NCBI GenBank assembly: GCA_019054805.1
Contig: JAHQIY010000001.1
Span: 5,284,501-5,348,500, forward strand
Direction of reading: 5' to 3'
DNA length: 64,000 nt
Source of the DNA: Brachionus manjavacas
Lineage: Eukaryota; Rotifera; Eurotatoria; Ploima; Brachionidae
Position numbers and translations under genes: made by a program. Position 1 is the stretch's first letter. Each line of letters starts with the position of its first letter. Shown piece by piece: positions 1,369-43,588 of this stretch. Under the pieces are notes generated by a model. It did no database searches, was not told the origin of the DNA, and was given only the letters and a program-made list of their open reading frames with translations.

Positions 1369-4300
1369 TTAACTTGCATAAATAATATCTTCAACTAACT
1401 TTAACAATTCTTTACCATATTCTAAAGCTTGCTCTGCTTTAGCTAAAAATTTTAAAATTAAATCATATTGAAAAATATTTATTTTTAAAAATTAAAACTT
1501 ACTCAATGGGAAAACCTCATTTGGTGTTTTTCCAAATCTCGCAATTCCCGGATATTGCATAGAATTAGCTTCGTTGCCAATAAAATTACAAAATCTAAAC
1601 GCTATGTCCCTAATGTTTGTATCAACTCCGAGCAATAAGCCATGAATGTCACTCGCTGGTAGCTTACCGTTTCCTTTAAAATAATGGTATGCTCGTAGTG
1701 CCTTTTCTACAGCACGATAGCATTTGTAACAAACCCATTCGTAGGCTGGCTTGCCCGTTAAAGGATGCATGTCATTATTTGCTGATTCAAGATCTGCCTT
1801 TGCTTGGGTGAACCAAAGACCTGCATCCATTTGAGTGAAATCAGTTCCACGACGTCTTGCAGACGACGGACTGCTTCGATCTCCTATGATAGAAAAAAAA
1901 TAATTATTTGTAACTAAATAAAGATCAAGATTTAAAAGGGAAGAATCCAAAAAGCCACTCGAAAAAACACGGAGTAAAACAATTACCCATATAATGATCT
2001 CTTGAAAATGACCTATATCTTCGATCTATATCAAATTAGTAAAAAATTAAATTCAATCACAAAAATCAAATGCTTAAATGCAACTAAACCAGAGTTATAC
2101 AAGTCATCAGACTTTGGTGAGAAAGTATGTATTTTTATGGTACTATAATATTAAAATAAAATTTATTATACAATATTATATATTTGAATTTATTTGGCAA
2201 TTTTTTTTATTTTTAATTTTTTTGATCAAAATATTAGTTGAAATAAGATTTTTTTTAGAAATTAGAAAAATTTTTAGTTTTTGATTAAAAAGAAAGAAAT
2301 TTTTTAGAAATTTTTTTTACAATAAATGACTAAACTTTATTAAACATGATTTTTTTATTCCTTGATTAGAAAGAAAACTGCATAAATTTTTATCTGAAGT
2401 AAATATAAAACCTTAATCAATATTTTGACATTTTTCAACACAAAATTTAACTTTTTTTATATATTTTAATTAATTTAAAATATCATCTAAAGCCATATTT
2501 TGGTTACCTTAATGCGGATTATAAATCTGTTTTTATCATTTAAATATTTTAGAAGAATCAATTAAAGATCAATTAGAAAGAAAAAGATATGTTTTTTTAA
2601 TCAAAATAAAAAAATCTTTGTTTAATTAAAAAAATATAAAAGATTATTTCATCAATTTTAATAATATCTTAATAAACTATGTTCTGATAAAGTGATCATG
2701 ATAATGAACTTCAAGTTGCCAAACTAAAAATGAAAATCTGGTGCAGACTTTTTTAGAAGGTAGAATCAGAATTTGGCAAAAGTAAAAAAAAAAGTCATTT
2801 TAAAGTTTTTTAAAAGCCAAGTCAGTGACTTGTCATTTGACTTAAAATTAAAGTCTTGACTTGACTTTGATTTAATGACTTTTGCCCAAGTCTGGGTAGA
2901 ATTATATTTGATTTGTATTCAACATGGTTAATAAGCTATTCACTGACTTGAAAGTTTTTGAAAATTTTCTTAAATATAAAAAATTACCTAAGTGTAGTTA
3001 TTATGCAATTTTTGCGCAACTATTATTTTTTACATCAAAATTATTTTGCTGATAAACTAATAAAAAAATAAAAAAATAGATTCTCTTTGCCAAAGTAATT
3101 ATTAATTCCATTTAAATGAACACATTTTTTATTAAGTCAGCCTAAAGTGTTATCTGATGGCGCTGAGAATTTAAAATACAAATTGAACAAAAATTTTTCC
3201 TTTTTTGATAAATAAAAATTAATGATAGTATTAGAAAAGAACTCCAACTTTTTTACCTGAATTAAAATCTCATTTTTTTTTAAAGTAAATCAATTCAATA
3301 ATCAATTTAAATTTCATTGATTTTTTATTATATGTGCTTTTTTAAAATTAGAAAAAATATTTTTAATATTAATTTTTGAAAATAGCAGAATTTTTTGTTC
3401 ACTTTTTATTTGAATTTCACAATACTTTGTCTGATGACCCTTAATTTTTTTAATACAACTCTGATCAGCCAGAAAATGTGTTATAAACGAGCTTTTTTTT
3501 TTTATTATTTTAAATAATCTTATAACTAACCATTTTCTGCAGAATCTGGTAAAAAATAAAAAATTAAAAAAAAAATCAGCTAAAAAAATTTATTAAAAAA
3601 AAAAACTCACTCGAATCAGTTCCTGTTCCAGTTTGTCTTTTTTGTTGTCTTCGCCTCTCCCACTCTTGCCTAAAGCTTCCAGCACGGCCCAAATTGCTGG
3701 GCCCAGGTCCTTTGGCGTCATAGTCAAATCCCCCAGTTGCGCCAGTCGCCCCAGGATCACGACTGGGACTAGAATGTGGCGAGTGACCACCACTTCCACT
3801 CGGACTGCCCTTGCGGTTCAAGTTCTCAAACGAATTGTAGTGTCTGGATCTGTAGTCGTCGCCAGTGGCCGTGGAAGTGTAGGCGCCGGCCGAAAAGCCG
3901 CCCGGCGTGTACGACGAGTACGCCGAACGATAATTGAATCCGGCCATGAACGGGTCGTTTTTGTACGTCTCAATTTGTTTCTTCAAGTGCTTGAACACCT
4001 CGCTGGCAAATTTTTCCTTGCCAGTATTTTTGTCCGGGTGCCATTTGAGCAGCAAACGATTGATTTTTTTCTTGCGTTCGTTTTCCTCGAGCGACCAGAG
4101 CGAGCGCAGTTCGCTGTTGACCTCGTTTTTGGCCTGTTCGAGCTCGAACGCAGTCGGTATGTTCTCCGAGCTTCCGTCATAGTTGGACGAAGTCTCGGAC
4201 TTGACGTCCGAAGTGTCGGACGCGTTGCTCGAGTCCTCGTAGTTGGACTCGTTCGAGTTGTTCGACGAGTGCTGATTGCTGCTAGGCTTGGGCTTGCTCT

Positions 4301-7300
4301 CGCCAAAGCTGTCCGAGTACTTGAAGGACTCGCGCTCGTCGGCCGGCTTCGCTTGCATGGCGTCATAAATGCGGTGCCAATTTTCCAGCACAAACAAGTC
4401 CTTTTTGTCAATGTTGAGCAGTTGGGCGGGCTCGTCGGACACCTGCACCTGGACATTGGAGTCGTCGTTGCCGATGTCGACTATTTGGCAGTACAAGTAG
4501 GCGCCTTGTTCGTTCAGAAAGACGCACAGGTCGCCGACGAGAACCGAGTGCAGCTTGGGGTCGTAGGGAGCGAGGAGTTGGACGTCGTCGCCGTACAACT
4601 TGCCGCTGGACGGCACGTACTGCAGCTTGATCACCGACAAAATGTTCTCTTCGGTGGCCACGTTGACCAGTTGGAGGAGGCGGCTCATTAGGCTGACGCT
4701 GGTGGCCATGAGCGACGTGAATATGGAGTAGTCGAAGTGGAGATCGAGCAGGAGCGGTTGGAGGCTGCGCGCGAGGCACAGCGAAAAGTAGGGCTGTTCG
4801 ATGTGCTTTTTGGACACGTAGAGAGTGGAAAATTGGTGATTTTCGTTGGTCAAATAGCAAGCCTTTTCTTCGACGGTCTGCTCGATTTTTTGCTGATTGG
4901 AAAGCTTTCGGTAGGACAGCGACGTTTCCAGATACTCGACACACGTGACCTTGATTGAGCTGAGGCGGTCGCGGATCACTTTTTCGACTTCGTCGATGGC
5001 CAGGTGCTTGGGCGAGGTGCGGCGCGCCTCTTCGTTCGAAATGCAGCGCGCCAAGCACCGGTGCAGCTGCCGGCTCGTGAATATTTGCTGGTACTTGCGC
5101 TCCAGAGACGTGAGCAGGTTTTGGCGCTGCGAGTCCGGGTCGTCGGGCAGCGTGTAGTCGTAGGTGGACTCGTACTTTTGGGTGAAGAGAGTGGGCCGCT
5201 GCGAAATGAATATTTTGTCAATGAGCGGCTTGATTTCGCCGGTGGACATTTTGAAGCACTTTTCGCCCGGGTTAAACACAAACTTGTCGTGCGTGAGCTT
5301 GGCCAAGTCGTCGAGGCTGTCGCGGCTGTCCACTATGACACAATTGGCCGACTTTTCCAGCTTGAGCTCGGTGGTGAGAAAATAGAGGCCGGGCAGCTTG
5401 AACTGCGGCGTAATGGTGTCCGCATTCAGCTTGAGATACTTGAAAAAGCCCTGCATGGCCTTGAGCGCCTTGCACAGCTCGTTCGAGTTCAAGTAGTCGT
5501 TGGCGCACACTTTGGCCATTTTTCTCAATATGTCGCCGTAGAGCATGGCGTACGGCTTGTCCTTGGCGCCCAAACGAATCAACAGACTCTTGTAGTCGTG
5601 CAGCTCGTTGGCAAGCGAGTACAAAAACGGGGCGCACTCGTCCCCAGCCTCCAAGTTCACGCAAACCTTGTTCGGACTGACGAACTTGCGAGTGGTCGCG
5701 CTCCACACGATTTCCTTGTCCTCCAGCTGCTTGAGTATGTCCTTGTCGGCCTCGGTCACGTTCATTTCGTTCAAGTACTTGTAAATGTGGCACAGAGCCT
5801 CGATGAGACACTTTTGGTCGAGGGCGTCGCTCTCGGCACAAATGTTGCTCAAGTGCGCGTTGACGAGCGCGAAGCACGGCTTCTTGTTCAGCTTGAGAAA
5901 TTCGACGGTGTTTATGTCGAGGGCAGTGGTGTCGACGAACTTGGGCAGTATGAAGCTGGAGGTCCAGACGAGCAGCTCGTGAGTGTGCAGCTCGGCGTCG
6001 CTCAGCTTCAGGCAGCTCTTTGAGAACTGGTCGTACTCGAACGGTTTTTTTAGTCGGACAAATTTTTGGTCGGGTGCGTAGGGCTCGAGAAAGCGCTGCT
6101 GCAGCACCGAGTCGTCGAACCGTTGCCAATTTTCGACCAAATGCTGATAGATGTACTTGGACTTGAGCCGTTGCTGGTCGGACCAGCCCGACTCGCTCAC
6201 TTTGAGCTCGATGTCGTTCATGCAGCGTTTGCACAGCTCGGACGGCAAGTAGGTGCGCAGGCCGGCCTCTTTCAAAAAGCGAATGCACATCGGCGAGTCG
6301 AACACCTCGTCCGGAAAGTACGACTCGTTCAAAATGTGAACCAAACACTCGGACTTGAGGTCGTACAAGTCGGTGATTAGTTTGTGCTCGCCGGAGCGCG
6401 TCTGAATAAAGAGACGCTCGCGCAGTATCTTCATGCATTTTTCTTTTTCGTGCGAGTAGATCTTTTCGAGTATTTCGTCGTACAAGTACTTGAGAAAGTT
6501 GTTCTGGGTCTTGGCGTCTATTTGGGGAAAGAGCGGCAAACAAATGTTGAGGAAGTTTTCGACGTCGTTCAAATTGTTGAGGCCGAGATGAGCGTAGAGC
6601 TTGAGCAGCTCGGTGCGCTTGATCAAAATTAGGCTGGCCTCGTTGAACGTCTGCTGTTGTTTGAACAGGGACCGTTTGATCAGAGAGAACAGGTCTTCGT
6701 TGATTAGATAGACTGAGGTGGTGAGTGGCGGGTAGGCGTGCAGGCTCACGTATTTGTCGCTCCACAGCGGCCGGTAGATTTTGAGCTCTTTCAAACGAGT
6801 AAATTGCGAGGGCTGATAGTTGCGCGCCAAAAAGTCGTTGAAATATTTCAATAGGACAAAAATGTCGTCGTCGCTCAAAAATTGACTCAGCGAATGCACC
6901 CGGTTGCACTCGAGCAAGTACTCGAGCACAACTAGTGGGTTGCCTTCGTCCAGCGACGACATTAGGTTGAGGTCGATGCGGTCGTCGTCCAGCCGCGTTA
7001 AAATGCCCTCCAAGCGTTTGTTGCCGAATCCGCGCGGAAAAACTCGCTGCTCGGCCACTAGCGCCAAATTCGAGTCGGTGAACTTGCATCCGGCGATCAG
7101 GCACACGCGTCTATCCACAGACGCGTGCACAAAATCAGACAAGTTCTCTGTCTTGCTCTCGATCGAGGAACTAACGCTGAGCAAGCGACCTGGCACCAAC
7201 ACCGAGTTCACATTGGGCAAATACAAGTTGTTTATTGACTTGTAGCCATGGTCGATAATTAGCGCGTAAACGTTTAGTATCAGATTGAAATCGTCCTTGT

Positions 7301-10300
7301 TAGTGACCGCTATGTCTTTGTACTTGCGCCTGACCACGTCGATGATTAGCAGCAGGTCGTTCAGATCAAGGTCTGGCTTGATTGGCAACACTTGGCTAAA
7401 CAGGTATTTGAACGAGCGGTGATACTGCTGCGGCAGTTGATAATAAATGGGCTTTAGGTTGAAATTGAGTGAGAGGATAACTTGGGAGACTAAAACAAAG
7501 TCGTCGTTGATTAAAATTAGTTTTTTGTCATTGAAAAATAGCCGAATGTATTCGTTCAATTGGGGCGCTTTTAGACATTCGGACTGAATGTATTCGTAGA
7601 CTTGATAGACCATGTCATTGAGCAGTTTGACTTCTTTGGGGTCGTCAAGGTCCGACAGATTGGATTTGGACAGCTCTTCGAGATGCTTCAGAACGTCTTT
7701 GAATGTCAATTTAGACGTCCAGTCGTCAATTGACAAAAATTTCTCCACTGATTTGGTTAAGAGGTTCTCTTTTTTTTTGTATTCGTTCAACGGGATGGAA
7801 ACTATACTCGATGCTATGAGCTCATATTGGGCTGACAAAAGCTCTTTTGGCTTGGCGAATCGATACTTGAATCTGTCGCCGAACCAGTACACGTTCAATT
7901 TTTGATATGGCTTTTGTTTGACAGCAATAAAGCTGATCTCTTTGAGGCTTTCGCCGATTTCTTTTAATTCTTGACTCTCATCTTGGTTGGCTAAAGAAGG
8001 AAAAAATGTTTAAAATTGGCTTTTATTTTTTTTTTTAAATCTAAATAAATATCATTTTTTAAAAGCAAAATTTGTAATTTTTTGTGTTATTCAATAGAAG
8101 GTCACGCAAACGCTTAGCATTTTTTAAATAAAAAAATTCAGGTTTTACCACTATTTTTTAAAAAGTTAAACATTATAACCAAAATTAAATAAAATAAAAA
8201 ATATGGCAAGGTTTTTATATTTATTTTTATTTACCTTAAATTTATATGGTATTTTTTTAAGTAAAAATTAATTTTTTTTTATTTTCTAATTATTATTCAT
8301 TTTTGACATTTCTAAAGCTTTTGATAAAGTTTGGCATGATGGACTAATTTATAAGTTAATTAAAATAAATCTACCTCCTTATCTTATTCATTGTATAAGA
8401 TCGTTTTTGCATTTAAGATCCTTTAGAGTAAAATGGTCATTTAAGTGATCAATATCCTATTAAAGCAGGAGTTCCACAAGGGTCGGTAATTAGTCCTCCT
8501 TCTTTTTAGCATTTTTAAAAAGACAGGAAATCTTGAAAAAATGATTAACAAGTACTTAAAAAAAGTTGAAAGATGGCTTTTCAAATGGAAAATGAAAATT
8601 TCTACCGAAAAGTCATGTTACATGATCTTTGAGAAAATAACTAAATTTAAGATAAATCTTTACCTTAAAATTAATGACAGCAACTTAAATAACGAGGAAA
8701 AAGTGAAATTTCTAGGTATCACGTTAGACTCAAAACTTACATTTAATCCAATGATGGATGAAATGAAAGAGCGCTGTAATTCAAGACTTAATATAATAAA
8801 ATATCTTTCAAATATGAAATGGGGTCTAAAACCAAAAACATTAGGTAATCTTTACAAATCCTTAATAGGATCAATCTTGGATTATGCTTTTCCTTATTTA
8901 AATTCATCCTCAGAAATTAACATCAAAATATAAGACTTATTCAAAATTCAGCAGTTCGATCTATTGTGAAGCTGAAATATAATATTCCCTCCAACATAAT
9001 GCATTACAAGGCCTTTGATAAACTTAATTTATTAGCAGTCTCAAATTGACTTCTTGAGTTGAGTGAGAGATATGTCAAGGGAGGAGTGAGTTATTCTGTT
9101 CCATTGGTCGTCAGATTGGTGAAAGAATGTAGACAAGGTTTTGAATCAAGATTTATCGAATATCCAACTGTTTTTTTTATATTTTATCCTATTTAACTTT
9201 AATTTTTTTTTATTTTTATACATTTTTCTTCTGAAGGAGAATTAGCTCGATACAGATTCACAAATAAATAAATTAGCTTTTTAATTTAGGGTAATAATCA
9301 AAATGTAGAATAAAAAAAAATATAGAAAGGTAAAAATATCGAAAAAAAATAAAGAATTTTATTAAACGTAGAATAAAAAAAAATATAGAAACAATAAATA
9401 TAGAAAAAAATATTAAAGTGTCATTTGAAGAAACAACTCTTTTTCTACCACTCAAGTTTTTTTTTGTTCGCTTTATACTTTCGCCTTGAAGAACGCTCAC
9501 TAAATTTGACTCTATGTAACTCTGCTCTTGCTTAAACAAGTCTATTATCTTGCCTACAGTCAAATTCTGCCCCGCATCAGGCTTTAGTCGTGAGTCGGAG
9601 TCTATTAGCGATCGGAGTATTAGCATTCATTTTAAATTTCATTAAAAAAAGCAAGATGTTTTTTTAATTATTTATTCCTTTCAAATAAATGTTTTTTTTT
9701 TCTTTATTTTTTGTGTTCTATATTTTTTTCTATATTTTGATATATCATCTTTAATTTAAGTTTTAGCCAAAGTCTCTCTTTTTTTCCATAATTAATATTT
9801 TCTTTATTTTTAAGAAAAATCTACATTTCGTCTTTCTATATTTTGTCCGCCTAGCATGTTTTCTTTTTCAAAATATAAATTCTTTTATTTAAAATTTTAG
9901 TTAATTTAATTCTTTGACCTATTATTTTAATAAAATTTAAATAAAATATCAAAACTATCTGTTTTATTACTTTTTTGGAAGTAAAGTAATTTTGACAACC
10001 GAACCTTAAAGTTCACCCAAAAAAAACAAAAAAAAAAAAAAAAAAAACAAAAAAAAAATACAATTTACTTTTTTTCATTAAATCCTCTTGACTGTTGAGC
10101 ATTTCGTTGAGAATGTTCAAAATAGCAATTGACCTCTCGACAGCTTGATCGTATTCTCTTATTTTAGAAACCGATTCGGCTCGCTCGATAAGCTCGCTCC
10201 AAGTGAGCTGGTCGCATTTCATGCCAAGGATTTTCAGTATCTGCAACCTGTCCTCCCTGATGTAGGCCTGTTCGGAGCCGAACGGAAATCGTTCGTCCGA

Positions 10301-13300
10301 TTCGGAGTACAGCGGCGCCAGCTTGCCATTCGGATGAATCAACTTGTTTGGTTTTTTGATGCGTCTGCCATAAGGACTGACAGGAATGCACGGATGATCT
10401 TTCAAAATCTCCAGCATCTTTGTATCCGCATGGTCCAGTGCAAAGAGCACAACCGAATCCTTCACATTTTTGGACAGATTGTTCAGATTGGGAAGTATGA
10501 TCTCGTTGTAGACGCGATAGTGGTCGTACAAATTGGTGGACTGGTGCGACTTTTTGATCAAATAGGCCTCTTCGTCCAAAATTTTAAAATGCTTTGTCTT
10601 AATCAAACTCATCACCGAATTGATCAAATTGTCCTTGATGTCCACTGACTTGTACGCGTCCGGCAAATACAAATAGATCAAGTCAGTTGTGGTTTCGTGC
10701 ACGGCGTTCATTGACACGCCGGCCGACGGCTGACTAACAAACGGATTTAGCGACGAGCTCAAGTTAATCAGCGACTCTTCGTAGTCCTTGATGTTGTTGA
10801 TCAACTTGGCCTCGTTGGGATAGTTGAGCTTGATGTAGTTGATGAGCGGATAGTTTTTGGCGGCGTTCTCCAAAATTTGATCCTTTGACATCAGCTTGGC
10901 ACTGTTGATCAGCTTGTGTGTGTTCTTGACACACTTGAGAATGATCAATTCCAGTTGCTTGGCATCGGGCGTTTTTTTCATGCCAATGCTTTCGAAAAAG
11001 GCCAAGTAGGGATAGAGCTCGTAGGGCAGCGTGTCCAAATGAGAGCTTAGCGGATGGTCCTTGTCGTTCAAGAGGTACACGGACGAAATGGACGAAAAGC
11101 GCTCGCCCGTCCACACCCATTCGGTCAAGTCGTTGGCCTTTAGCTCGCGGTTAATGTTGGCCGCCTCGTGCACACACATAAACTCGTAGCACTTTTTGGC
11201 CACGGTCAAATAGTCGTACCATTCGATTTTGAGCGCCGACGACTCAAAACACTTGGTGGTTAGCTTCAAGTGACGCACCACCTGATCCAAATAGACTTTT
11301 TTCAAGTCGAGAAAGTCTTTTAGTTGATTGGGAATGTCGAGGTCGGATATGCAGTTGACCGATCCGACGCAGTACGAATAGGACTGGTCGACGCAGTCCT
11401 TGGGCGACGAGAAGCGATTGTTCATGGCCGGATCGGCGCCCCGCCACGCCAACGACTGCGGATAGGACTGCGGCCGCTCTTTTTTCAGCGGAATCCAATT
11501 GACCGACGTCAAGTAGTGGCGCAGGTTGACCGCCTTGCTGGCCGAATACTCGACGAGCAGCGTTTCGTTTTGCTCGTGCCGGCTCACCAAAATTTCGACA
11601 ATCAACTCGGCCAGCAAACGTCGGCTCGCCTCGTTCATCGACTTGATCGATTGCTCGAACAAATCGATTATTTCGTCGATTTTGAGCTGGGTGTAGGAGC
11701 GCATCTTGAGCTCTTTGAGCACGCTGACACACTTGTCGTCTTGGAGCAGGTCCTGGGAGGGCAGAATTTTGGGCTCCAAAATGGCCAGGTACTTGTCGTT
11801 TTTGCCCGGGTTTATGAATTGACTCGGCGAGCACAACTCCTGGCTTTGGTTGAGAAACAATTTGGTCGATCGCACCGACTCGTTTAGATCGCTGGAGGCG
11901 AGCACGTACGTCGAACAATTGGACAGCAGCCATTTGCCGAGCAAGTGGATTTTGATCGAGTTGAGCGAGTTGCGCTCGCGGTCCCGCACATAGCTGATTA
12001 TTTCGTGCAGTATGAACGTGAACTCTTTGCATATGTTCAGGCCTAGTTTGTCCTGGATGAGAATTTTGGTGTCGAGTGAGTCGACGAATATGAACGACTG
12101 GAGGCCTGGTAGTTCGAATGGCAAGCGGATTTGCGTGTCGTAGTAGACGTGCGAACACTCTTTGATGGCTATGTACTTGTCCATGCACTCGACGGCCGCG
12201 TTTTCGAACATGGGCACGAATTTGATGAACTCGAGGAGCTCGCGCTGGTTCGAGTCAAGGCTCGGACTCGAGTGGGCCAGCTCGACTTTGGCCAGGTACT
12301 TTTGGACTAGTCTTATGTCCAGGTCGGTGAGGAGAGCGTTGAAGTCTTGGATTATTTTGACTGTGGACGCGTGGCGGTACTTGTTTTTGAACGCTTGGAG
12401 CAGGCCGAGCCGGCTTTTTCTCACGTTGGGCACGTAGTTGAAGAACAGGGGATGAGAGAGCACTGTGTCCGGTATGGAGTCGATGCATTGAAAGTCGAGT
12501 TTTTTTAGGATGCGCACCAGGTTGTCGTAGAGCTCGATGCTGATCGAGTCGTCCAAAGTGGTGTAGGTCGGCGTGTAGACCAAGTTTGAATTGTTCGAGA
12601 GCTTGTACAAGTTGAGAACGCTCGAGGAATGAGACGCTGGCCCGGTGTATATGATGTTCATGTTTTCCACTATTGACAGGTTGGTGGCAAAGTTTTCGTT
12701 CAAATATTTCCAGAGGGTTTCTAGCCAAGTTAGGTTGTGTTTGTCATGGTTTCGTGGCCACTGGATTTTTTCTTCGCCGCATCGCCACTCTTTGGGCACG
12801 CTGATCAGCTCGCTTAGCTCCGAGTCCGGTATCATCTGAAGCTGAGTTAGACCTTTTAATTAGCCAAAAAAATTAATTAATTTTTTTTCTCTATTAATTT
12901 TTTTTATTTGGTTTAACAGCAAAATGAAGGGCTCAAATAGAAGAGAGAAAGATAACAAGAGCTTGTTGATTTTATCAAAAAATAAGCCGTAGAAAACAAA
13001 ATAATTATTTTAATTTGTTCGAGTCAGTTAAACGCTCATTATTAGAAGTGCAAATAAATGAGCTGAGGTGAATTAGTAACACGATACTTGTCGATTTTAA
13101 TTCAAGTCCATTAATCAAATTTTGAGAGTAATCGCAAAGCTCAGGTGTTTTAGTTTTTTGTTGTTTTTAATTAAAAAATTGATTGATTAAATTTAGTATA
13201 TCAATGAAATAATTTTTTTTCAAAATAAATTTAAAAAAAAAATTTTATTTTTTTTTTCAAAATCTGAAAGAGCCGTAAATCGTTACAGATAAACTAAAAA

Positions 13301-16300: not shown

Positions 16301-19300
16301 CTTTTTGTTGTGTCTTCTTGCTTTGACAAAAAATATTCTGCATCAACCCAACAAAAAAAACAACAAGATCTAACTTAAGTGATAAGCGAGAAAATATTGA
16401 ACATATTTAGTAATCCTATTGTTTTTCGAATTGCAAACTAAGCATTTATAATCGACAAAAAAATAAACAATAAAAAAAACTTACTTTCTGTGTGATACTA
16501 GCATAAATCAAAATTCAAATGATCAAAATTCTTTTTGTCCCGATTAATTACTCTATTTATTCTCAAATGATTTCAAAGAACAATTGCTATCAATTCAGAG
16601 TTAATTGCGCTCTTTTTATTTATCTCAAAAAAATCCTTCACTAAAAGCCAAACTATCTTAATCTCATAAATTAATTAAATTAAAGACTGCTAATTATTTC
16701 GCTGGTGGAAGTGGTTTATTTTGATTTTTAAAGAACGAAAAAATTATTAAAAAAAGAGACTTTAGAAGGAGTATAGGCATGCTAGCACAAAAATCTAAGA
16801 AATTCAATAAAGCCCATTGTGAGGTGAACTTTTTTTTTCAAATAAGAAATGATTTAAAAAAAAAAAACACAACGAAAGAAAAAATTCAACAAAAGGTAAA
16901 GATATAAAACAAAATTCAAATAGAAATTGCTTAATTTAATACTAATAACAACAATAATTTATTTTCTTTTCTCCAATAAGTTGTTCTTGGATTTTTTTCT
17001 ACTTTTTCATGAGCTTCTTTACCTTTCTTATTTTATATTAATAGTATGGCGTTTTTAGCTAAATTTTTTTCTCTGTATGCTTCTAATTTTTTTCTATTTT
17101 ATTTTAAATTCAAACAAATCGGGTCACAAAATATATTAACAAGAGCAAGAAAAAAAAAACAAAAACATTTAATAATCAATTATACTCACGTTGAAATTCG
17201 GACTTTTTGAATATGCTAAGTATGTCTTTAGGAAGATCTGGATTTATGTATTGCATGTTTGATTGATCATTCAAATTGAATAGCTTCAAATAGTCTTTTT
17301 CGACCAAGTAGACCGATTTTGCTTTGTTGGCAGATTGAAACTTGACAAATTTCTGATTTGAAAGCAACAAAAGAGGCAGATCTAGGACGTATCTGGCGGC
17401 TGCACTTGGCCACGCATTTTGGCTGTTGACCGCTGGCTCCTTGATCAAATATCGTAAAAGCTCTATTCTTTGATTTGGCTTTAATGTTTCGATCAACATC
17501 ACATTGTTGTGTAGAATGTCGCTAGTCTGCGAAGGGCTCATTATTTGCAAGCTGTCTTTGGGGCTGAACTTTTGCAGCGCATTGAGCACATGCGGAGGCA
17601 TGATCACAACCGGATAGTTAGTCTCAGAGTAGATCTTTGTCAAAATCTCTTGCAAAATGGACTTGTCGTCCACATCGTTGATAATCATGTCTTCGATAGC
17701 TACATAGCCCCAGCCTTCAGTTGACGAATAAAACAATTCGTGCTTGGCAATTTCTTGCCATATTTCACCAAGTAGTTCAGAGAATTCAGTGTTCTTGTCC
17801 AGATCAGGCATTAGAGACCACAATAGAGTGGGGTCTTTGCGAATTATTTTGGTCAGATCTTTTAACATTAAAGCATATGCATCGTTGAAATGAGATAGTT
17901 TGAGAGAATCGCTAATGTTTAGACGACAAAAATGCGACATCAAAATGCCCTCTTTGTCCTCAATGTAGCAAATGATTGGCTTGGACAAGTAGAGGGTTTT
18001 GATGAAGCCTGTGTCGCTTGATATCAGATTTGACTTGTGACTGAATCGAAGATCTTTGTCACAGTTGTCCGAAATGGGAATAGCCAATTTCATGAGAAAG
18101 TAATTTGAATTCAAGAGACGCATTGTGTCAGCGAATATTGATAAAATCCACTCGGTTTTTTCTATTTTGGTCTCGATTTGTTTCCTTAGTGTTATTATGA
18201 TTGTGCTGGTGCGTGGAAATTCTCCTTCTTGAACAGCATCGTTAATCTTCTTGTATTTGTGCTTGAACTGTTCCATACACGATTCTTCCACGTTAATGCT
18301 GTAGATCTGTTCAAACATTAAATTTAATCATTATTTTCTAGGCTTGAAAAAACCTAATTTTGGTCACAATTTTGAGAATTTATTAGGAAAAAGCAAATTT
18401 AAAACTTGCCATAATTCTATCTAAGGTTTATTTTCTAATAAAATTTTTAAATTAATTTTTATCTTTGACCTATACATGAAATTTAATGTATTGGTTTGTA
18501 TTTAAATGATAATTTGAATTAATTTAATTATTAAATATTGTGTATTTTTTTAAACTATTTTTCTTCGCTATTATTATAAAGCTATTTGTTTAAAATATTA
18601 AATATTTGTAAAGAAATAGTAATTTATATGTCAAATTGAAAGTTTGATTTTTTTGATAAAATCATTTATTTTTGTGGTAGACCACAATTTAAACTCGGTT
18701 ATTTAACACTTCATGTTTTCAATTATTTATTCAAGTTTCTTTAATAAAATTATTGACTCGAACAAATTTCTCAACTAAAAATTTTGTCTTAAAAAATCTT
18801 AATATATATCAAATTGTCTCATTTAAATCAATTGCGTTTAGAAAGTTAAAAGAATTGATAACACCGTAGTCTAATCTGTCTTTGATCCTTTAGTCATAAG
18901 TTTACCATTAAGGTGATATAGTTAATTTTAAGAAGGATCACAAAAATGGAATTTATTTTTCCTATTCAGATGAATCATTGAATCATCACATATTACCAAA
19001 AAATTGTTGACATTTCTAATGATTTTTTCTAGCAAACTTAACATAATTAAAATCAAATTCATTTTTTTGTAGAATTTAATTAAGTACTGTTGTGTTTAGC
19101 AGAATTTTTTTCATTCTCTACATGAGTCTCTCGAGACCTTATTAGGAGCCCTTTTGACTTGTGAACCTTAGCTCCCGCAACAGGACAACCATGTTGCACA
19201 TATTATATGATTAATGGTAACAACCATCTAGAATAAAAAATGAGTGATTAATTCAAATCAACTGAAGAAGATTAGCGCAATTTAAAAATTTCAAAATTTA

Positions 19301-22300
19301 ATAGATTGATGCAATAAATGATTGATGAGTGTTTCAATTCAATTAATATACGCAGAGCTCACAGTAATTCTAGTCACTGACTTTTACTTGTCTTTATTTA
19401 TAAATAAAACTCTTGGTTTTTAGTTTGAGGTAGATTTTGGTGTTAGATAAAAATTCTTTTACCTTGTCTAAAAAAATTTTTAAATTTATCATCAGTCTAA
19501 TGTGAACACAGATAAGACATCTGATATGGCCTAAAAAATAAGTCAATTCAAATTTCTTTAAATTTTGTTAATGTAAAATTGATGACAGAATATTTAAAAA
19601 AAAAATTAATTTAGTAAAAAAAAATTACTTTTTCGATATTTTGGTTGTCTTTGCTTCGACAAAATTGAATGTTGGATATATTTTTGGAGAAAAGAATGTG
19701 CAAATGAGCTTCTTTCATGAAGTCTTTGGCATTTACGAGAATATCCTTGACATAAACAAGCTTATTTGACACACTACAACTACTGTTCTGGGTTCTAAGC
19801 GGCAGTCGAATTATGGTGCCATTGTAAAATTTACTTTTCAGCAAAGGTACATTGAAAATTTTCTCCAATGGCTTAAATTGATCTTCAAATTGTTCGATGT
19901 CATTAGTGTCGTTTTTTAGATCGAAAATGGCCACATACGAGCGTTCGTCCGTCGATATTCTTTCATAGGGGTCGACAAATGCAACTTTGAAGCCACTTAG
20001 AATGGCTATAAAATCCGAAATGTGAAAAAAGGACATAAACTTGGACGCTTGGCTGTTCAGGCCTGGCTTTTGGTTTGGCTTAGAGCGTGGCAAATGAGAG
20101 GACTTGTTTTGGGTCTGGAGTGAAGCGTCGTCATCGTTGTTCACAAATATTTCATCCCAGTGTTCATCTTTGAGTATTGCATCGTATGTTATACAAAGTG
20201 CTGGTCCTTGATAAATGTCATAATCGGTCGCGATGAGATTTTGAGTTTCGTAGGAATTTTCGTTGATCAAACACTTGACAACTTTGGCGCCAATGTTGTC
20301 GCCATAGTGGACCAACGACTGAAATGTGTTTAAATAAAAATGGTTATGATGAATATGATTATTAAAAGGATGGAAACTATTGCTAAACGGCAAATTACTA
20401 AACATTAAGAAAAAGTTTAATTTGGACTGTCTTCTCAGGTAAGTGTCTGGCTTGTTTGTCCGAGCTTGGCAGTGATTGCTTTGAGCAGTGTTTGCTACTA
20501 CCTTGGGTCTTGATCTAGCGTTGCTAGTAGTGATTATGGGTTTGCAATTTTGGCTTACGTTTTGAATTGATAAAGAAGATGATAATTTATTTCCATTCGA
20601 TACAGATAAATTGCTAGTAGGAGAGTTAAGCGAGGAAATCGTACTTTTTACAATTTTTGCTTTTGAATTATTATTATAATTAATTGCATTTATTTTTAAA
20701 TTATGATTATGATAATTATTGTTGTATTTAGCTTTTGGATTAAGAGATGACATTATAAAAGCTAAACCCAAAAAAGAGAAAAACGTGAATAATACGAATA
20801 TCCTATTCAACCTTAGCTCTCGCTATTATTCATAAAACAAATTCTAAAATTTTAAAAAATGTAAAGTTCGATATGCTTCTTTTTTCTAGCATGTTTTAAG
20901 TGAGAGAGAAATTTCTTCATGAGTCAGAAATTACTTGGATTAAATATATTTACTTTATTACTGTAGAATTTTAATATTTTGAATCTTTTTGTTTTCCTTT
21001 ACTCACACACACTTTATCATTAATTTAAAAAAAATCAACTTTTTCACTCATTTCACAACAAACAAAAACTGCTTTTACTTAAAGGTTTTTCTTTAATTAA
21101 GGCCAACCTAATTATTCAACGAGGTTAACAAACAAAAACAAAAAAAAACTCAGGTCAAATTACAGAATGTAATAAGGCAAATAAAAATATGTCTAGGGTC
21201 TACCCCGTTTTGTGGCTTTTTGGCTCGCTTTCGTTATGGTGACCAAAAAAAATTAAATAAAAAAATTTGGTAGAAATTAGCTTTTGTACTAACAACTAAA
21301 AAAAAATATATCAATTAATTAATGTAAATCAATTACAGAGTAAGAAATAAAAAATTCATTTATGCATTCCCAAGTCTTGTTTATAAAAACTACCACACTT
21401 ATCACATTCTACTCGAGTATACCACTCGATTGGTAAAAGATTTGTTTAATAAACAATAAATACTATCAATCACGCTCCTATTTAACTTTTGTTCGTCCTC
21501 TTTTGGAATTTGCTGTGCCTGTATGGTCTCCATTTCTTAAGTCAGATTGTGAGAATCTTGAGAGGATTCAACGCAGATCTACGAAATTTTTTTCTTCAAT
21601 TAGAAACAAACCGTATGAAAGCAGATTGAAGGCTTTGAACATTCCAAATCTGGTGGAAAGAAGAAAAAGAGGTGATCTAATTCAATTATACAAGTTCATG
21701 CATGGAAAAGAAATGGTTGAAAAAAGCAACAATTTTAATGTCACCAAAATCCAAGGAAGAGGTCACTGCTTTAAATATCACAAAGAAATTTCGAGGCTCC
21801 AACATAGAGATAACTTTTTTTTTCGACAGAACCGCTAACATATGGAACTCACTGCCAAATCAATTAGTTGAAGCCCCCAATGTTAACAGCTTTAAAGCAG
21901 GCATTGATTGCTGGATGAGCAGCAATCAATGACATCAGCTGTCATAGTGTGCCTTATCAGCACACTCGCTGGCTAGCCAGCTACAGTCAAAACTGCTACT
22001 ACTACTATTTTGTGTTTTGGCTTAAATTAAATTGAATAAATTTTAGAAAAATGGTATTCAATAGAAAGTCTTTTTAGCCTGGAAATAAACTGTTCATTAT
22101 TTTTAAACACTTTTGTTTGCAGCAAAAGTTAAATTAAAAATAAGTATCTTTATTATAATTTATTAAGCAATCTGCTAAGTTTTAAATCTTTAGATCAGTC
22201 TTGATACTACGATAATTGCTGTAATCAAAAATCTAAATTCAAACCTTAGCTTAAAATCTGACATTAATAAAATTTTTAAATGGTCAAATGCCTGGTCAGC

Positions 22301-25300
22301 TAAATGTTAAACAGTGTAAATTGTTTAACTGGGTCGTAACAACACAAAATTTGAGTACACAATGTTTGAGACCCAGTTGCTAAACACATCAAATTGCGAA
22401 AAGGATTTGGGCATTTTTATCCAGAGCGAGTTAAAATGGGACGCCCAGGTCAAAAGCTCAACTCCTATAGCAAATCGTATTCTAGGATTGCATCATGGTC
22501 TCCATTTTATGAAAAGGATGTCAATTAACTTGAAAAAGTTGAACGAAGATTTGCAATATCTTGATTATTCCCAGCGTTTATTGAAACTTGATTTAACTAA
22601 TCTTAGAATAAGAAGACTTCGAGGTGATTTGATTCAAATGTGTAAGATTGCAAACAATTTAGAAAAAGTTAGTTTTGAAAACGGGATAAATTGTAGTCTA
22701 AACATAATGCCTGATACCAGAAGATACGACTTGGGAAGGAATAGCAAGAATATGCAGAAAACTGTCTTCGAAGATTTTTTGGCTAAAACACTTGTGAATT
22801 AGTGGAACAAATTGCCAGAGGAAACAAGATTGACGGCGAAGCGTATTAAAACAACTTATATAGCTTATTAAAGCTTGGCTTGCAGAATCTCCAAGCTGCA
22901 GCTAATTTTACTTCTGCTCCTAGTTTTAGCACTAACTTTTGGATATCCTCTCTTGAATATCCAAAATAATTGAAATATCCAACCTAATAAATTCGAGTTT
23001 ATCTATTGATACCCAGTAACGAAACTAAAACATTAAATCAGAGACAGCTATCTCCCGCTAAAACTTTGAAAATCCACTTTTTTTCACACAAAAAATCTTC
23101 ACAATAAAAAGACTAAATATTTTTCATGTAACCAGATTGATGGAATTTCTTGGCTAGATGAGCCGCCATTGTGGTAGTGAGCCTGGCAAAACGGGTTAGA
23201 GCCAGAAAATGAGCTGTTTTTTTTTTTAAATTAAATTTTGTGAAAAATTTATTTTTCAAAAATAATTAAAACTTGAGAATTTAAATACTTGAGACATACG
23301 GATAATTTTCGCGTCGTCTTAGTTTTTATTGCAAAGAATCTGACTCATAAATGGAAAAAGAAAAGAAAAATTTTTGTTCTAATGAAATAAATATTGAATG
23401 TTATTACCTTTTCTATTCAAATAAGATTTAAAATGTATCGTTTGATGCTTGGAAAATCATAAAATTTCTATAAATAACAATAGTCATTTCGAACAATTTT
23501 AAATGACATTAATGAGCTATTAATCAAAAACCAAAGGCCTTATTTGGACACTTGCTGCAAGCAATCTTTTCAACTAACTTAAATAGGGATAGTTTTAAAC
23601 TTTTTCTCATTTGTTGAATCTAAAGTCTTTCTTGAGTCAAATAGATACAAAAAAATCACATACCTCTATGGTCTCGGTTGATTTGGGCACATTTTTTAAA
23701 AAACACTTGAACAAATCGGCAATGCGTATACTCGGGCTGGATACGATTCGCATTTTTAGCTCAATGTTTTCTAGTGTCTTTTTTATCGAGCTTGAACTCG
23801 TCAATAAATTATTTTGTGAAGATGAACTATTCAAATCTGTCGTCTTTGATTTAGATCTAGCCCGGAGCTGAATTTCATTCGTAATCGGTTCGGCCTGATC
23901 CAAACTACTTGCCTCGAACCGACTTGGCGAAAAAAATGTTTTGGGCGTTCTTTTGTGAATTACCGGCTTAATACTGGATGAGTTTGTGTACGTGGGATTT
24001 ATCACATTAAGATTGACGATGTTATTGGAGTGGTTTGGTGGCTGGATAATTGCTGGCCTGGCCGGATTTTTGAGTGAAGTGGATTTTTTGACCGCGCTGG
24101 ACGATGGATTAGGTCCTGTTGAGTAAAAACGATTAGTCTGCACTTTGCTGCTGGGAGTCTGCTTGAGAAAAAAAGAAGAATTGGACGAAGGGTCTTCTAG
24201 GCTTGGATATGATGGCGTCGAGGGCGATGGTCTGCGGGTCCTATGCTGGCCGTAATTTAGACTTGGATTATTTGCTGGTTGATGAATGAAAGTCGTGGCT
24301 GTTAGCTTTTTCTTTGGGCTCGTTAAAGCATCCGTTTCTTTGTCTTAACAATAGAAGATTATTTAGATTGTTAAGCTTTTATAAAATAGTTTATTTGCCT
24401 TTTAAAAAAATATCTCAAATATTTTTATATAGCTTATTAGAAGAAAGAATTTTTGGAAAAACTAATCTTTAAACACTTTAACAAGTTATTAAATAAGATG
24501 AAATTATTTTTATTTCTACAACCTCCTCGCTTTTACTTATGAATAATCAATTTATCATAATCTCCGAGAATATTTTTTCGCCTACTTAGATCACTGATCA
24601 TTTTTCTAGAATAAAAATAATTATCAATCTTAGAACAAAAAAGAAAGAAAAAAGCTAAAGATAAGTTCTCATTCTGGGCGGTTGAGATTTTTATTTAAAG
24701 TTGACGCTTGCTTCTTATTAGATTAATATTTTTGTTGTTGCCTTGCAACTTGAATTTGAGTTTTTTTTTTTTTAATTTTTTTGATTACGAATAGAGGATT
24801 ACCGGGTTATAAAAGTACAAATTTTTCTTTTAAACTAAACTTTTTTCTAAAAACCAATTAGCCATTTGATTAAAATTTTTTATTATTTGACTGAGCCAAA
24901 ATTGTTTTAAGTAGCCTTGCTCATAGCGGTGAATCGATGATTTATTGATTTTTTTCTTCTTAATTTGAAGTAAAAAAGCTAGCTCTGAAAATGTAAATTT
25001 TAATTAATTTCGTTATGTTTGATTTTTAATAAAATATTATAAAAATATTTAATTTTATTATAAACAAGAGCAATACAGGTAAATTTTAATTAAGTAAAAA
25101 TAACTAATTTGTTTGCCTATTGCTTTTTTGAATTGTAAAATACACAAACAAGCATTTTGAAAATCAAAGAGAGTACGTGACCATATACTCACAAAATATT
25201 TTAAAAACCTCAATACCTTTTAGTGATAACCATGGCCCCGAAAAAAATTGCTAATTTAAACTAGAATACATTGCTTTTGTGGAACAAGATCTATAAAGCT

Positions 25301-26014
25301 AAAAATGTTAGATTGGAAAATTCTAGTCAAATTTTTCAAACAAAACAACTTTCTTTTATTTTTGTTTTTAATTTACTAAAAAAAATTAAAAGTCTCAATT
25401 AAAGTTGTTAATCCAAGTTAGCAACGAATTTACTAAAAAATAGTTCAAATTAAATGCATAGAACAAGCGCTTTATTTAAATAAAGAAATAGGTCAAGCAA
25501 AATTAGAAAAAAAAGTTATCTAAATTACAAATATATATATATGATGGCAAATAAAGCCTAAAAAATCCAATTTTGATTCTAATCTAAACATAAAAAATCC
25601 GAATTTACTTGTATAAAATAATGAGATAATAAAAATCATATATTTCATTTTTATCTCTCTACTAAACTAGTTCAAGAATATAAAAACTCATTTAAAGAAT
25701 GTCATCAATCTTCTTTGGGAATAGATAAAGCTCTAAAAATACTTACCATTTTTTAATGGATATTGGTAATAATCATTTGGATTTGGCTTATTTGAATATG
25801 AATATGGAGAGGCTGTATAGAGCTTATTTGACGAAAGATTATTTGAGTCGGATGAAGGCCCAAATTTCAACAAACTTGAGCTTGACAAACTATTAAGCGA
25901 GCCAGTTAAGGGTTGTTGTGATAGGGACGAATTGAATTGAAGCGTATTATTTGAGTTAAATGTTGGCGTTTTACGAGAAGGCGATAGTATTTGATTTGAG
26001 CTATTAGAATGCAT
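1369..26014 (-). CDS. SACS: Sacsin-like giant co-chaperone, 8 exons, 3625 aa
   Basis: Exons in transcript order: 25747-26014, 23664-24343, 19629-20822, 17190-18306, 10069-12852, 3611-7990, 1503-1883 and 1369-1442. Every junction is GT..AG, the phases match (1,0,0,1,1,1,1) and the total is 10,878 nt. Residues 1-480 are Ser/Asn/Pro-rich and look disordered. Residues about 485-710 align with the Hsp90-like ATPase of a sacsin repeat (QGPALC at about 521, then HISDF..LSG..VAFVDP), but the N-box reads SLVHYGDNIGA. About 2,500 residues resemble the rest of sacsin repeats. A J-domain follows with HPD at residue 3332 (4032-4040), then a Gly/Ser-rich linker and a HEPN domain in the last two exons. Human sacsin is about 4,579 aa with a UBL and three ATPase repeats; here I see no UBL and one ATPase. 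The family acts in chaperone and mitochondrial/cytoskeletal quality control. The C-terminal architecture makes the family secure. The linkage of the first two exons rests on phase and composition only. Confidence 0.85.
1503..1883 (-). CDS. SACS: Sacsin exon 7: HEPN domain
   Basis: This is the penultimate exon of the sacsin-like gene. The acceptor is TATCATAG at 1884 and the donor is GTAAGT at 1502. It encodes the helical HEPN core (WFTQAKADLESA, then CYRAVEKALRAYHYFKG), which in sacsin follows the J-domain and dimerises or binds nucleotides. A 60-nt intron separates it from the terminal exon 1369-1442, which encodes about 24 residues of a final amphipathic helix and the stop. Confidence 0.85.
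1884..3610 (-). other. SACS: Sacsin intron 6, with degenerate AAGTC repeats
   Basis: A 1.7-kb AT-rich intron. At 2790-2895 many AAGTC/GACTT words sit in both orientations, as at 54270-54330 and near 44800-44830. No coding frame was found; open frames such as 2078-2284 are low-complexity A/T. Confidence 0.55.
3611..7990 (-). CDS. SACS: Sacsin exon 6: repeat-like region plus J-domain, GC-rich
   Basis: A 4,380-nt exon. The acceptor CTTTAG lies just above 7990 and the donor GTGAGT at 3610-3605. It holds sacsin-repeat-like sequence, then a J-domain with the HPD tripeptide at 4032-4040 (Hsp70-stimulating motif), then a Gly/Ser/Pro-rich tail before HEPN. The exon is strikingly GC-rich for this locus: bases 5101-5160 count 39 G/C of 60. 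This produces long spurious antisense and frame-shifted ORFs, which I do not annotate. Confidence 0.88.
8309..9274 (+). mobile_element. Jockey/CR1-like LINE 3' part, antisense in sacsin intron 5
   Basis: The frames contain SKAFDKVWHDGL, GVPQGSVISP (RT motif B region), then KVKFLGITLDSKLTF and LIGSILDYAFPYLN, all typical of a LINE reverse transcriptase and its C-terminal part. Frames are broken by stops and shifts. The element ends with a T-rich 3' UTR and the tail TTCTGAAGGAGAATTAGCTCG... followed by AAATAAATAAATT (9234-9274). Related tails occur at 13801, 38396 and 63515 (reverse). Confidence 0.85.
9280..9850 (-). mobile_element. Unidentified repeat with inverted AATATAGAAA-type flanks and ORF fragment
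   Basis: A minus-strand frame at 9420-9626 encodes a hydrophilic 70-residue stretch (LTVGKIIDLFKQEQSYIESN) that is not part of the sacsin reading chain. On the left flank GTAGAATAAAAAAAAATATA-type units repeat (about 9306 and 9367). On the right flank the same words appear in reverse complement (9715-9845). The layout suggests a small inverted-repeat transposon or a nested LINE ORF1 piece. I cannot name the family. Confidence 0.35.
10069..12852 (-). CDS. SACS: Sacsin exon 5: repeat-like region
   Basis: A 2,784-nt exon. The acceptor AAAAG at 12853 gives phase continuity with exon 4 (C+GT = Arg). The donor is AAAAAAA|GTAAAT at 10069. The opening residues (LTQLQMIPDSELSELISVP) and the following WLETLWKYLNENF resemble the start of a sacsin repeat segment. 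No second ATPase N-box is visible. Immediately beyond the donor the minus strand is a T-rich tract (10021-10060 is nearly all A on plus), which might affect splicing. Confidence 0.85.
13421..13661. repeat. Foldback element of about 240 bp
   Basis: TATTCTGTCCTT at 13421-13432 is the reverse complement of AAGGACAGAATA at 13650-13661. Further in, TGTGTCCTTT and AAGGACACA pair at offset positions, and TACTTAG/CTAAGTA words add to the symmetry. This looks like a small non-autonomous element in sacsin intron 4. Confidence 0.5.
13801..13846 (+). mobile_element. Isolated LINE 3' tail
   Basis: Bases TTTAATCTGAAGGAGCTTTA and the following GGCACAGATTTA resemble the 3' tail of the LINE at 9234-9274 and are preceded by the same kind of T-rich 3' UTR. 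It is probably a heavily 5'-truncated copy. Confidence 0.45.
13985..14172 (-). mobile_element. Candidate tRNA-derived SINE
   Basis: On the minus strand, TAGTCAAATGA (14168-14158) resembles a pol III A box. About 35 nt on, GGGTCGAATCT (14124-14114) resembles a B box (GGTTCGANTCC), as in tRNA-headed SINEs. The body downstream (GAGGCCCTTTT...CAACAGGACAA) has a second copy on the plus strand at 19115-19198. No functional tRNA fold is claimed. Confidence 0.5.
14790..15056 (+). mobile_element. LINE reverse-transcriptase fragment
   Basis: An 86-codon open frame contains VFLGNKKVPPLKDSFSYL, matching the post-catalytic RT segment in which a target name and 'FKYLG..F' follow the active site. It lacks the other RT motifs. 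It lies antisense in sacsin intron 4. Confidence 0.5.
15610..15700 (+). mobile_element. Putative retroelement 3' end with (AAAT)n tail
   Basis: A GC-rich island (CTGCCTGGGGCCTCGGCCC, near 15656) is followed by A/T and then AAATAAATAAATAAATT. This resembles other retroelement tails here but is too short to classify. A 20+ base poly-T run lies just before it (about 15518-15540). Confidence 0.3.
19115..19198 (+). mobile_element. SINE body fragment, second copy
   Basis: AGGAGCCCTTTTGACTTGTG ... CAACAGGACAA (19144-19188) aligns with the minus-strand body at 14072-14034. The tRNA-like head is not visible here. It lies in sacsin intron 3 (18307-19628), which is otherwise featureless. Confidence 0.45.
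21440..22012 (+). mobile_element. LINE 3' end with (CTA)n tail, in sacsin intron 2
   Basis: The frames read EFAVPVWSPFLKSDCENLE, then ERRKRGDLIQLYKF, and after a frameshift at about 21835 NIWNSLPNQLVEAPNVNSFK. This is the standard C-terminus of CR1/Jockey-type ORF2. The element ends in CTACTACTACTA (21996-22007). The 45.4-kb copy has the same kind of tail. Confidence 0.85.
22195..22880 (+). mobile_element. Second LINE 3' fragment in sacsin intron 2
   Basis: It contains KWSNAW, then LLNTSNCEKDLGIFIQSELKWDAQVK, RRLRGDLIQMCKI and a final WNKLPEET-like stretch. This is the same class of ORF2 C-terminus as the preceding copy, but its target-name segment is separated by stops and its middle appears deleted. 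No (CTA)n tail is visible. Confidence 0.8.
24344..25746 (-). other. SACS: Sacsin intron 1
   Basis: AT-rich intron of 1.4 kb. Donor ATG|GTAAGT at 25746, acceptor TTGTTAAG at 24344, phase 1 (G+AC = Asp). Nothing else is recognisable. Confidence 0.55.
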
Positions 26015-28231: not shown

Positions 28232-28758
<527 letters not shown>

Positions 28759-32200: not shown

Positions 32201-32936
32201 TTCTGATAATGATATGAAATGGTTTTGATAAGTTAAGATTCATTAACAACAAAAAAAAATGGTTATAAATTAGTCTTTTTGCATGAGTATGCAAATTAAG
32301 AAAAAAATTATCTGGAAATAATTAAAATTCGTGGAGAAAACATACTTGTTGTGAAAGAATTTTGTTTATTAGGCTTTATAACTGATCAATATAAATCTAA
32401 AAAGAATTTTTTTTTGCTAAATTCAGTGAAAGTTCTATTTTTAAGACCTTTATTATACTATATTTTGATTATTATAATTATGGTTTATTAAAAATAAAAA
32501 ATTAAAAAAAGGAAAAACAAATTATTTTGAATTTATTTTTTAATTATAAATTCATTTTAGATAAATAGATTGTCGATGAGACTTAAGCTTTAATTAAATA
32601 AATTAAAATAAATATAACTTCTGAAATCATAAAAAATTCTGAAAAGATTTTGGCATTGATTTTTAAATGTTTTGCTTTATTTTCCAAATAGTTAAAATTA
32701 AAAAATGACTATTTTTGGTAAAAAATAAACACAAATGTACTTTTTCAAAAATTGAAAAAAAATTCAAATAAAATTTAAAAAGGGTCATTTTTAATTTTTT
32801 TTAGTGAGTATTATATAGTTCTGAAAACTTCTACTACTACTAATAATAATTCTAGAAATTATCAAGAACATTTAAAAAATCTTAAATACCAAATTAAAAT
32901 AATAAAATAACTATATGTTAAAATCTCGTAGGTACA

Positions 32937-43369: not shown

Positions 43370-43588
43370 CTCAAAAAATAATAATATATTTTTTTTTTGT
43401 TTGATTAAGTTAGATTTTTTATTAAAGTTTATTAAAGATAATTTAAAATTCGCCTTTCATGCATAAAAATTTTCAAAAAAATTCTATACATCAAAATTTT
43501 CATTAAAATTTGGACAAAATAGTTTCTATAGTAAACTTTAATGTAGCATAAAAATTATAATTCATTTTTATCTCAACTAAAATTTAAA

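Follow-up and report, generated by a model that had tools for sequence, protein, structure and literature searches.

Can a sacsin retain its co-chaperone parts after the ATP site of its only remaining Hsp90-like head has been lost? This question is raised by a gene in a 64,000-nucleotide stretch of the genome of the rotifer Brachionus manjavacas, which was analysed as a whole and is referred to here as the window. ATP binding by the Hsp90-like domains of sacsin has been called debatable, and an ATP-driven chaperone has also been argued for (PMC9880540). A sequence-only reading of the window had proposed a sacsin that combines its co-chaperone parts with a pseudo-ATPase, and the domain and ATP-site comparisons support this proposal. 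We suggest, with a probability of roughly 0.85, that the only gene found in the genome with a J and HEPN tail is a sacsin turned into a non-ATPase, which would act as an ATP-independent J/HEPN scaffold.

The gene runs on the minus strand from 26014 to 1369, and our splice model gives 10 exons with 3503 open codons and one terminal stop (Table 1). The exons were placed by open frame, GT-AG borders and phase, and the weak points of the model are exon H and the acceptors of exons E and F. The protein starts with a low-complexity N-terminus, followed by one complete repeat with an altered head, two headless repeats, the J domain and the HEPN domain. The acceptor of exon C is CATTTCAG/TCGTTGG, where the solidus marks the exon border, here and below. 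This exon had been placed at 19629..20822; its 19629 end stands, but the true exon starts at 20318, and 20822-20319 is an open frame of 168 codons within the preceding intron. Similarly, the N-box had been put at about residue 485 of 3625, but its Ser is residue 317 of 3503; the figure of 485 fits if the 168 extra codons are included. A longer exon C starting at 20822 was rejected because helices that directly follow each other in the aligned relatives would then be separated by 168 codons of low complexity. The open frame at 20319-20822 (minus strand) has an ATG near 20753 and shares the Ser/Asn-rich content of exons A and B. As a possible alternative first exon, it would leave the N-box unchanged.

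Table 1. Exons of the sacsin gene, in window coordinates.
Feature	Coordinates	Strand	Content	Basis
Exon A	25747..26014	-	residues 1-89; Ser/Asn-rich; likely start codon	splice model
Exon B	23664..24343	-	residues 90-316; low complexity, then first SR1 helix (~296-316); ends ...STETIE/	splice model
Exon C	19629..20318	-	residues 317-546; single Hsp90-like SR1 (SACS) head, ATP site lost	Pfam PF25794, 5v45, site scoring, AlphaFold2
Exon D	17190..18306	-	residues 547-918; Hsp90-middle-like sr2	profile alignment
Exon E	10069..12852	-	residues 919-1846; remainder of repeat 1 (to ~1467) and part of repeat-2 tail (from ~1594)	hhalign with sacsin-repeat profile, E 2e-26 and 3e-5
Exon F	9479..9601	-	residues 1847-1887; within repeat-2 tail	in-phase splice model
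Exon G	3611..7990	-	residues 1888-3347; end of repeat-2 tail, repeat-3 tail (2266-2664), J domain	hhalign E 1e-7, 1iur match
Exon H	3531..3545	-	15-base micro-exon, residues 3348-3352	GT-AG and phase only; least certain exon
Exon I	1503..1883	-	residues 3353-3479; HEPN domain without Rx4-6H	Pfam PF05168, 3o10
Exon J	1369..1442	-	74 bases; last residues to 3503, stop	splice model

Several other genes occur in the window. Just upstream of the sacsin gene and on the same strand, there is a gene at 28235-28758 (minus), which we take, by eye from its sequence, to be a HINT-like histidine-triad gene. An FkbM methyltransferase ORF is situated at 43547-44512 (plus). The N- and C-terminal domains of Symplekin are on separate ORFs in the region of 52738-58048 (plus) and 58687-60765 (minus), beside a polycystin-type channel that is encoded on the opposite strand.

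The assignment of the gene to sacsin was based on matches in both Pfam and the PDB. Exon C matched the SACS family (PF25794) with 83.4 bits at a cut-off of 32.8, and all four of its PDB matches were sacsin, with the SR1 entry 5v45 as the best (E 2.9e-18). For the end of exon G, the best of 17 PDB matches was 1iur (E 2.5e-12), listed as KIAA0730 protein, which we take to be the human sacsin J domain. The J domain of the window protein keeps the HPD motif (WHPDKN; H3205) ahead of the C-terminus, and its Pfam DnaJ score of 20.5 bits is below the cut-off of 27.8. Exon I matched the HEPN family (PF05168) with 42.4 bits at a cut-off of 22, and the best of its four PDB matches was the sacsin HEPN entry 3o10 (E 1.7e-7). 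At least one copy of the HEPN family was found in the genome, and it is located in the window. The J and HEPN domains had been described as intact, and both are indeed recognisable; however, the HEPN RNase motif Rx4-6H, as defined in PMC3710099, had no match in residues 3353-3503.

The remaining exons carry less information from the databases. Exon A has no known domain and matched no Pfam family at E 1 or below, exon B has a sub-threshold Pfam match only, and exon D has no Pfam family. Residue 296 in exon B is where the sacsin-repeat profile starts (position 1), and the helix at the end of this exon precedes the N-box. Exon E matched nothing else in the genome (E up to 1) and nothing in the PDB (E up to 5); exon G had three weak matches in the genome, to the J region, on contig C20. 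No ubiquitin-like family was found by Pfam in exons A and B, to which this search was confined. Ubiquitin-like fusion to sacsin was reported for vertebrates (PMC3710099). Because the fusion was reported for vertebrates and a coral sacsin-like protein has no such domain, it is not required for sacsin membership. Judged by these matches, the gene is a sacsin, and the only gene found in the genome with a J and HEPN tail.

In the ATP site, ten positions are identical in Hsp90 and in all three human SR1 heads, namely E116, L117, N120, D123, A124, G188, G191, G193, F194 and T269 (PMC9880540, Table 1). The window head has S, L, Y, N, I, Q, G, N, F and T at these positions in one alignment, or S, L, Y, N, I, N, A, K, F and T in another, and thus keeps four or three of the ten. 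In comparison, 25 other sequences keep 8-10: the three heads of a second sacsin-repeat gene of the same genome (the C3 gene) 8, 9 and 10, a protein on C2 9, and 20 bacterial heads 9 or 10. The sacsin chain 5v44, the last of the 25, has all 9 of the positions that its aligned stretch covers, with its Glu just outside. The bacterial heads were picked by a pattern including NADDA, and because of this bias they give no base rate. A fairer control comes from the same genome. As the sequence-only reading had advised, we compared the head with paralogues of the same species, and the window head stands apart from them: eight other SACS-type N-boxes (three on C3, one on C2, two on C5 and two on C6) keep both Glu and Asn, with the C5 pair and the C6 pair each being near-identical copies. 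The SACS-type matches in the genome form 11 stretches, some of which are pieces of one domain, and the N-box of one C5 stretch is outside the count.

The altered N-box SLVHYGDNIGA is present as described, in a minus-strand exon with an open frame. Its catalytic Glu has become Ser317 and its Mg-binding Asn has become Tyr321. The border between exons B and C (E/SLVHYGDNIG) is a phase-0 intron, and so is the corresponding border in the C3 gene (K/ELLQNAEDSG). The shared position places Ser317 on the Glu codon. Further losses are Asp123 to Asn324, Ala124 to Ile325, Asn160 to Tyr361 and Phe164 to Leu365, of which Tyr361 occupies the adenine-Asp/Asn position. Asp168, a position for which the mutation D168Y is known (PMC3629688), aligns with His369 in the PDB match alignment and in one of the site-scoring alignments, and with Asp in the other. 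The glycine segment was said to be replaced. This is true for two or three of the three glycines of the phosphate loop G..G.G: an ungapped alignment keeps none of them (N, A and K instead), but one with a 5-residue insertion keeps Gly402. The rest of the fold is kept as had been noticed, with QGPAL and LSG..VAFVDP, to which GTIIRLPLR can be added.

Changes in the head were not limited to the ATP site. Only 15 of 41 columns conserved in the bacterial heads are kept by the window head, and the 26 others, three of them gaps, include positions beyond the ATP contacts, so general divergence contributes to the losses. The identity of the window head to the 20 bacterial relatives is 12-27%. A claim that the ATP contacts were lost preferentially over other conserved columns was rejected, as other columns had also been lost. 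In the middle domain, the putative catalytic Arg corresponds to human R474 (PMC9880540). The Arg column of our alignment has Arg in 28 of 29 repeats (repeat 3 of the C3 gene has Asn and then Arg), and the window protein has Asp679 there; this column is equated with R474 by its spacing. The distance from the Glu position to the Arg is 358 residues in human, 372 in C3 and 362 in the window. The W-N motif behind the Arg column is missing from the window protein in the profile alignment. Of the features expected in an active ATPase of the GHKL/Hsp90 type, the window protein lacks the N-box Glu and Asn, a complete glycine loop and the middle-domain Arg. We infer that its head probably neither binds nor hydrolyses Mg-ATP.

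The fold of the head seems to have outlasted the site. AlphaFold2, supplied with exon C and 20 bacterial relatives, gave a model with a pLDDT of 81.4 and a pTM of 0.80, in which residues 64-87 (the lid) were below 50. The bacterial head L046, the ATP site of which is intact, reached 80.9 and 0.83 when modelled from the same 21 sequences. Both models show a helix, a strand, a helix, a strand, a helix, the lid, a helix and strands. The L046 model has in addition one front helix, which is coded in exon B of the window gene, and a short helix in the low-confidence lid. Relative to the conserved Phe, the post-lid helix of the window model begins, by manual count, about three residues before that of L046 and spans the place of the glycine loop. 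The exon C model thus has a predicted Bergerat-like order of elements, and the fold assignment was based on this order and on the sequence matches.

It had also been noticed that no second or third ATPase could be seen, and our searches gave the same picture. Pfam SACS matched in one of eight exon queries (exons H and J, with 15 and 74 bases, were outside the queries). An HMM of 25 relatives was run on all six frames of the window, over open stretches of at least 15 aa, and returned exon C with E 8.6e-22 and the next piece with E 1. A loose N-box pattern occurred at two further sites, 32602-32688 on the plus strand and 15514-15675 on the minus strand in the intron after exon D, and neither is an HMM match. 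When a head-only HMM was run on residues 1481-3190, two marginal pieces appeared (E 0.0053 for the whole, 0.04 and 0.08 for the pieces) at profile positions 414-482, past the ATPase domain; they were taken as noise or sr2 remnants.

Whether the heads had escaped detection or had gone was addressed through the repeats behind them. Comparison of the window protein with the C3 protein by single-sequence hhalign and blastp was set aside, as it gave weak tail matches, with a chain score equalled in 3 of 60 shuffles and a best single match above all 60. Because this comparison was weak, we built a sacsin-repeat profile with bacterial members instead, from the three C3 repeats and 26 bacterial sequences. 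In hhalign, window residues 296-1467 matched the profile nearly end to end (E 2e-26) and represent repeat 1. Two further stretches matched from profile position ~788 onwards: 1594-2024 as the tail of repeat 2 (E 3e-5, probability 73%) and 2266-2664 as the tail of repeat 3 (E 1e-7, probability 94%). These tails scored 55.2 and 75.4, compared to 26.4 for the best of 60 shuffles. Three repeats can be traced in this way, the first whole and the others as tails. Ahead of the tails of repeats 2 and 3, there are 127 and 242 residues, whereas the C3 heads occupy 524-557, so there is no room for heads in these repeats. On these lengths, heads 2 and 3 appear to have been physically lost and not merely to be unseen.

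The C3 gene (C3:7916257-7904125, minus strand) encodes 3991 aa. Pfam found three SACS stretches in the 3255 aa scanned; no J or HEPN domain was found in these 3255 aa and the C-terminal 624 aa, and the latter had no match at all. The C3 gene resembles the window gene in its sacsin repeats and in the intron of the first head, which agrees in codon boundary and phase. This agreement in position suggests that the first heads share their descent. The C3 gene differs in having three intact-looking heads and no J or HEPN domain found, and the two genes form a complementary pair, one with heads without J and HEPN and the other with J and HEPN without an intact ATP site. Other GHKL proteins of this genome carry ELIQNVDDA at C5:3642001-3672000 and 3708001-3728000, as near-identical copies, and EIIQNFEDT at C6:2306001-2326000 and 2332001-2352000, again as near-identical copies. 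Viral contigs gave 222 pattern matches, with no relative among them.

The low conservation of the head might indicate that the whole gene is decaying and that its head was lost as it became a pseudogene. The 15 of 41 conserved columns kept and the identity of 12-27% to the 20 bacterial relatives would agree with this, but decay is hard to reconcile with 3503 open codons in 10 exons separated by GT-AG introns, or with an exon C for which 0 of 2000 base shuffles stay open. Moreover, HPD is present and the HEPN domain is recognisable. Codon usage points in the same direction. Third-position GC is 0.72 in exons E and G, in a window with 29% GC and introns with 8-30%, so codon choice departs strongly from the AT-rich background. 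For comparison, it is 0.27-0.57 in eight actin ORFs of the same genome, 0.31 in the C3 sacsin-repeat ORF and 0.22-0.38 in five neighbouring ORFs; expression, biased conversion or another cause is possible for the high value. We consider decay of the gene very improbable. An artefact of the gene model, in which another exon with a normal N-box replaces exon C or the preceding intron is misplaced, has hardly any probability in our view. The model was indeed made from genomic sequence alone, other starts are conceivable with a frame that is open for 168 codons upstream of exon C, and a loose N-box pattern exists at 15514-15675 (minus). However, the latter is downstream of exon D and thus in no position to supply the beginning of exon C. 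In the six-frame HMM scan, every other head piece stayed at E 1 or worse, and no exon with a canonical N-box was found ahead of exon C. The junction between exons B and C corresponds to the phase-0 intron of C3, and exon C extended upstream still gives ...TFQ/SLVHYGD. Neither the glycine loop, which is found midway through exon C, nor the Arg column of exon D depends on this junction.

Two other explanations accept the loss of the ATP site and differ in what the protein does. The head may have been re-purposed, such that its altered pocket binds another ligand or a Mg-free nucleotide, or such that it serves as a regulated protein-binding module. The conservation of QGPAL, VAFVDP and GTIIRLPLR and a model that is confident outside the lid suggest that the domain may be maintained for some use. 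However, with Tyr at the adenine-Asp/Asn position and most of the loop glycines lost, there is no evident nucleotide site, and positive evidence for any ligand is lacking; we regard this explanation as possible but rather doubtful. Alternatively, sacsin may be split in this animal, with the C3 protein providing three ATPase heads and the window protein providing J and HEPN, the two acting in trans to restore sacsin function, possibly in one complex. The C3 heads with 8, 9 and 10 of the 10 ATP-site residues, the absence of J and HEPN from the C3 sequence scanned, a HEPN family with at least one copy in the genome, found in the window, and the common intron position are all consistent with a split. 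Nevertheless, sacsin paralogues occur in other animals (PMC3710099), and C3 may be an independent paralogue; we regard a split as unlikely. If it were true, the ATPase-driven role of sacsin and its recruitment of Hsp70 would be genetically separable in a living animal.

We return to the proposed ATP-independent scaffold. The pseudo-ATPase head and the long repeat tails would form a static scaffold that binds clients or the cytoskeleton. The HEPN domain without Rx4-6H would dimerise the protein, as dimerisation by HEPN is a possible role in sacsin (PMC9880540), or it might take part in RNA binding of the non-catalytic type proposed for sacsins that lack this motif (PMC3710099). The J domain, with its HPD intact, would recruit Hsp70 and pass clients on to it, and Hsp70 would provide the ATP turnover. 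An ATP-driven function of sacsin repeats, if needed, would fall to the C3 paralogue. In sacsin-less neurons, the J domain of sacsin resolved neurofilament bundles, and SIRPT domains scaffolded neurofilament assembly (PMC9779362). The J-domain result makes a J-centred role plausible, and both results are consistent with the proposed division of labour.

From its sequence, the window sacsin would have its scaffold role separated from ATP turnover. A sacsin with J and HEPN but without ATPase heads is a natural experiment, suggesting that some conserved role can do without ATP turnover in the heads. The same genome also offers C3 as a comparison gene in which the heads are kept and the tail is absent, and these roles are joined in one gene in human. 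In the open-access literature searched, we found no described sacsin with a pseudo-ATPase or a comparable loss in its heads, and a rotifer transcriptome paper mentions sacsin expression only (PMC3701536). What looks new is that the last remaining head, too, has lost its ATP site.

Among the known systems, the bacterial sacsin-repeat proteins (mostly from cyanobacteria, and also from Verrucomicrobiaceae and Polyangia) have repeats of up to ~1240 aa, and the profile that unites them with the C3 repeats matches the first repeat of the window protein along its whole length. They differ in the ATP site, with 9 or 10 of 10 positions kept in the 20 aligned sequences, a selection biased by NADDA. Long proteins with sacsin repeats were seen in L029-L045 (mostly cyanobacteria), L046 and L049 (Verrucomicrobiaceae MAG), and their alignments with the C3 repeats exceed 600 residues in some cases. 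L046 and L049 also have a weaker sr2-like piece ~1000 residues further upstream, which is suggestive of a tandem arrangement of repeats. A sacsin-like protein of the coral Acropora, compared by its description, is reported with one Hsp90-like nucleotide-binding domain, J, HEPN and no ubiquitin domain (PMC8626496). With one Hsp90-like domain in the coral protein, loss of heads may not be unique to the window gene. Vertebrate sacsin (SACS), with SIRPT1-3, J and HEPN, is longer (4579 aa, compared to 3503 in the window). In the window protein, repeats 2 and 3 are headless, the ATP site of repeat 1 and the catalytic Arg are lost, and no ubiquitin-like domain was found in exons A and B. However, SR1, a J domain with HPD and the HEPN domain follow each other in the same order in both proteins, and three repeats can be traced in the window protein, the last two as tails.
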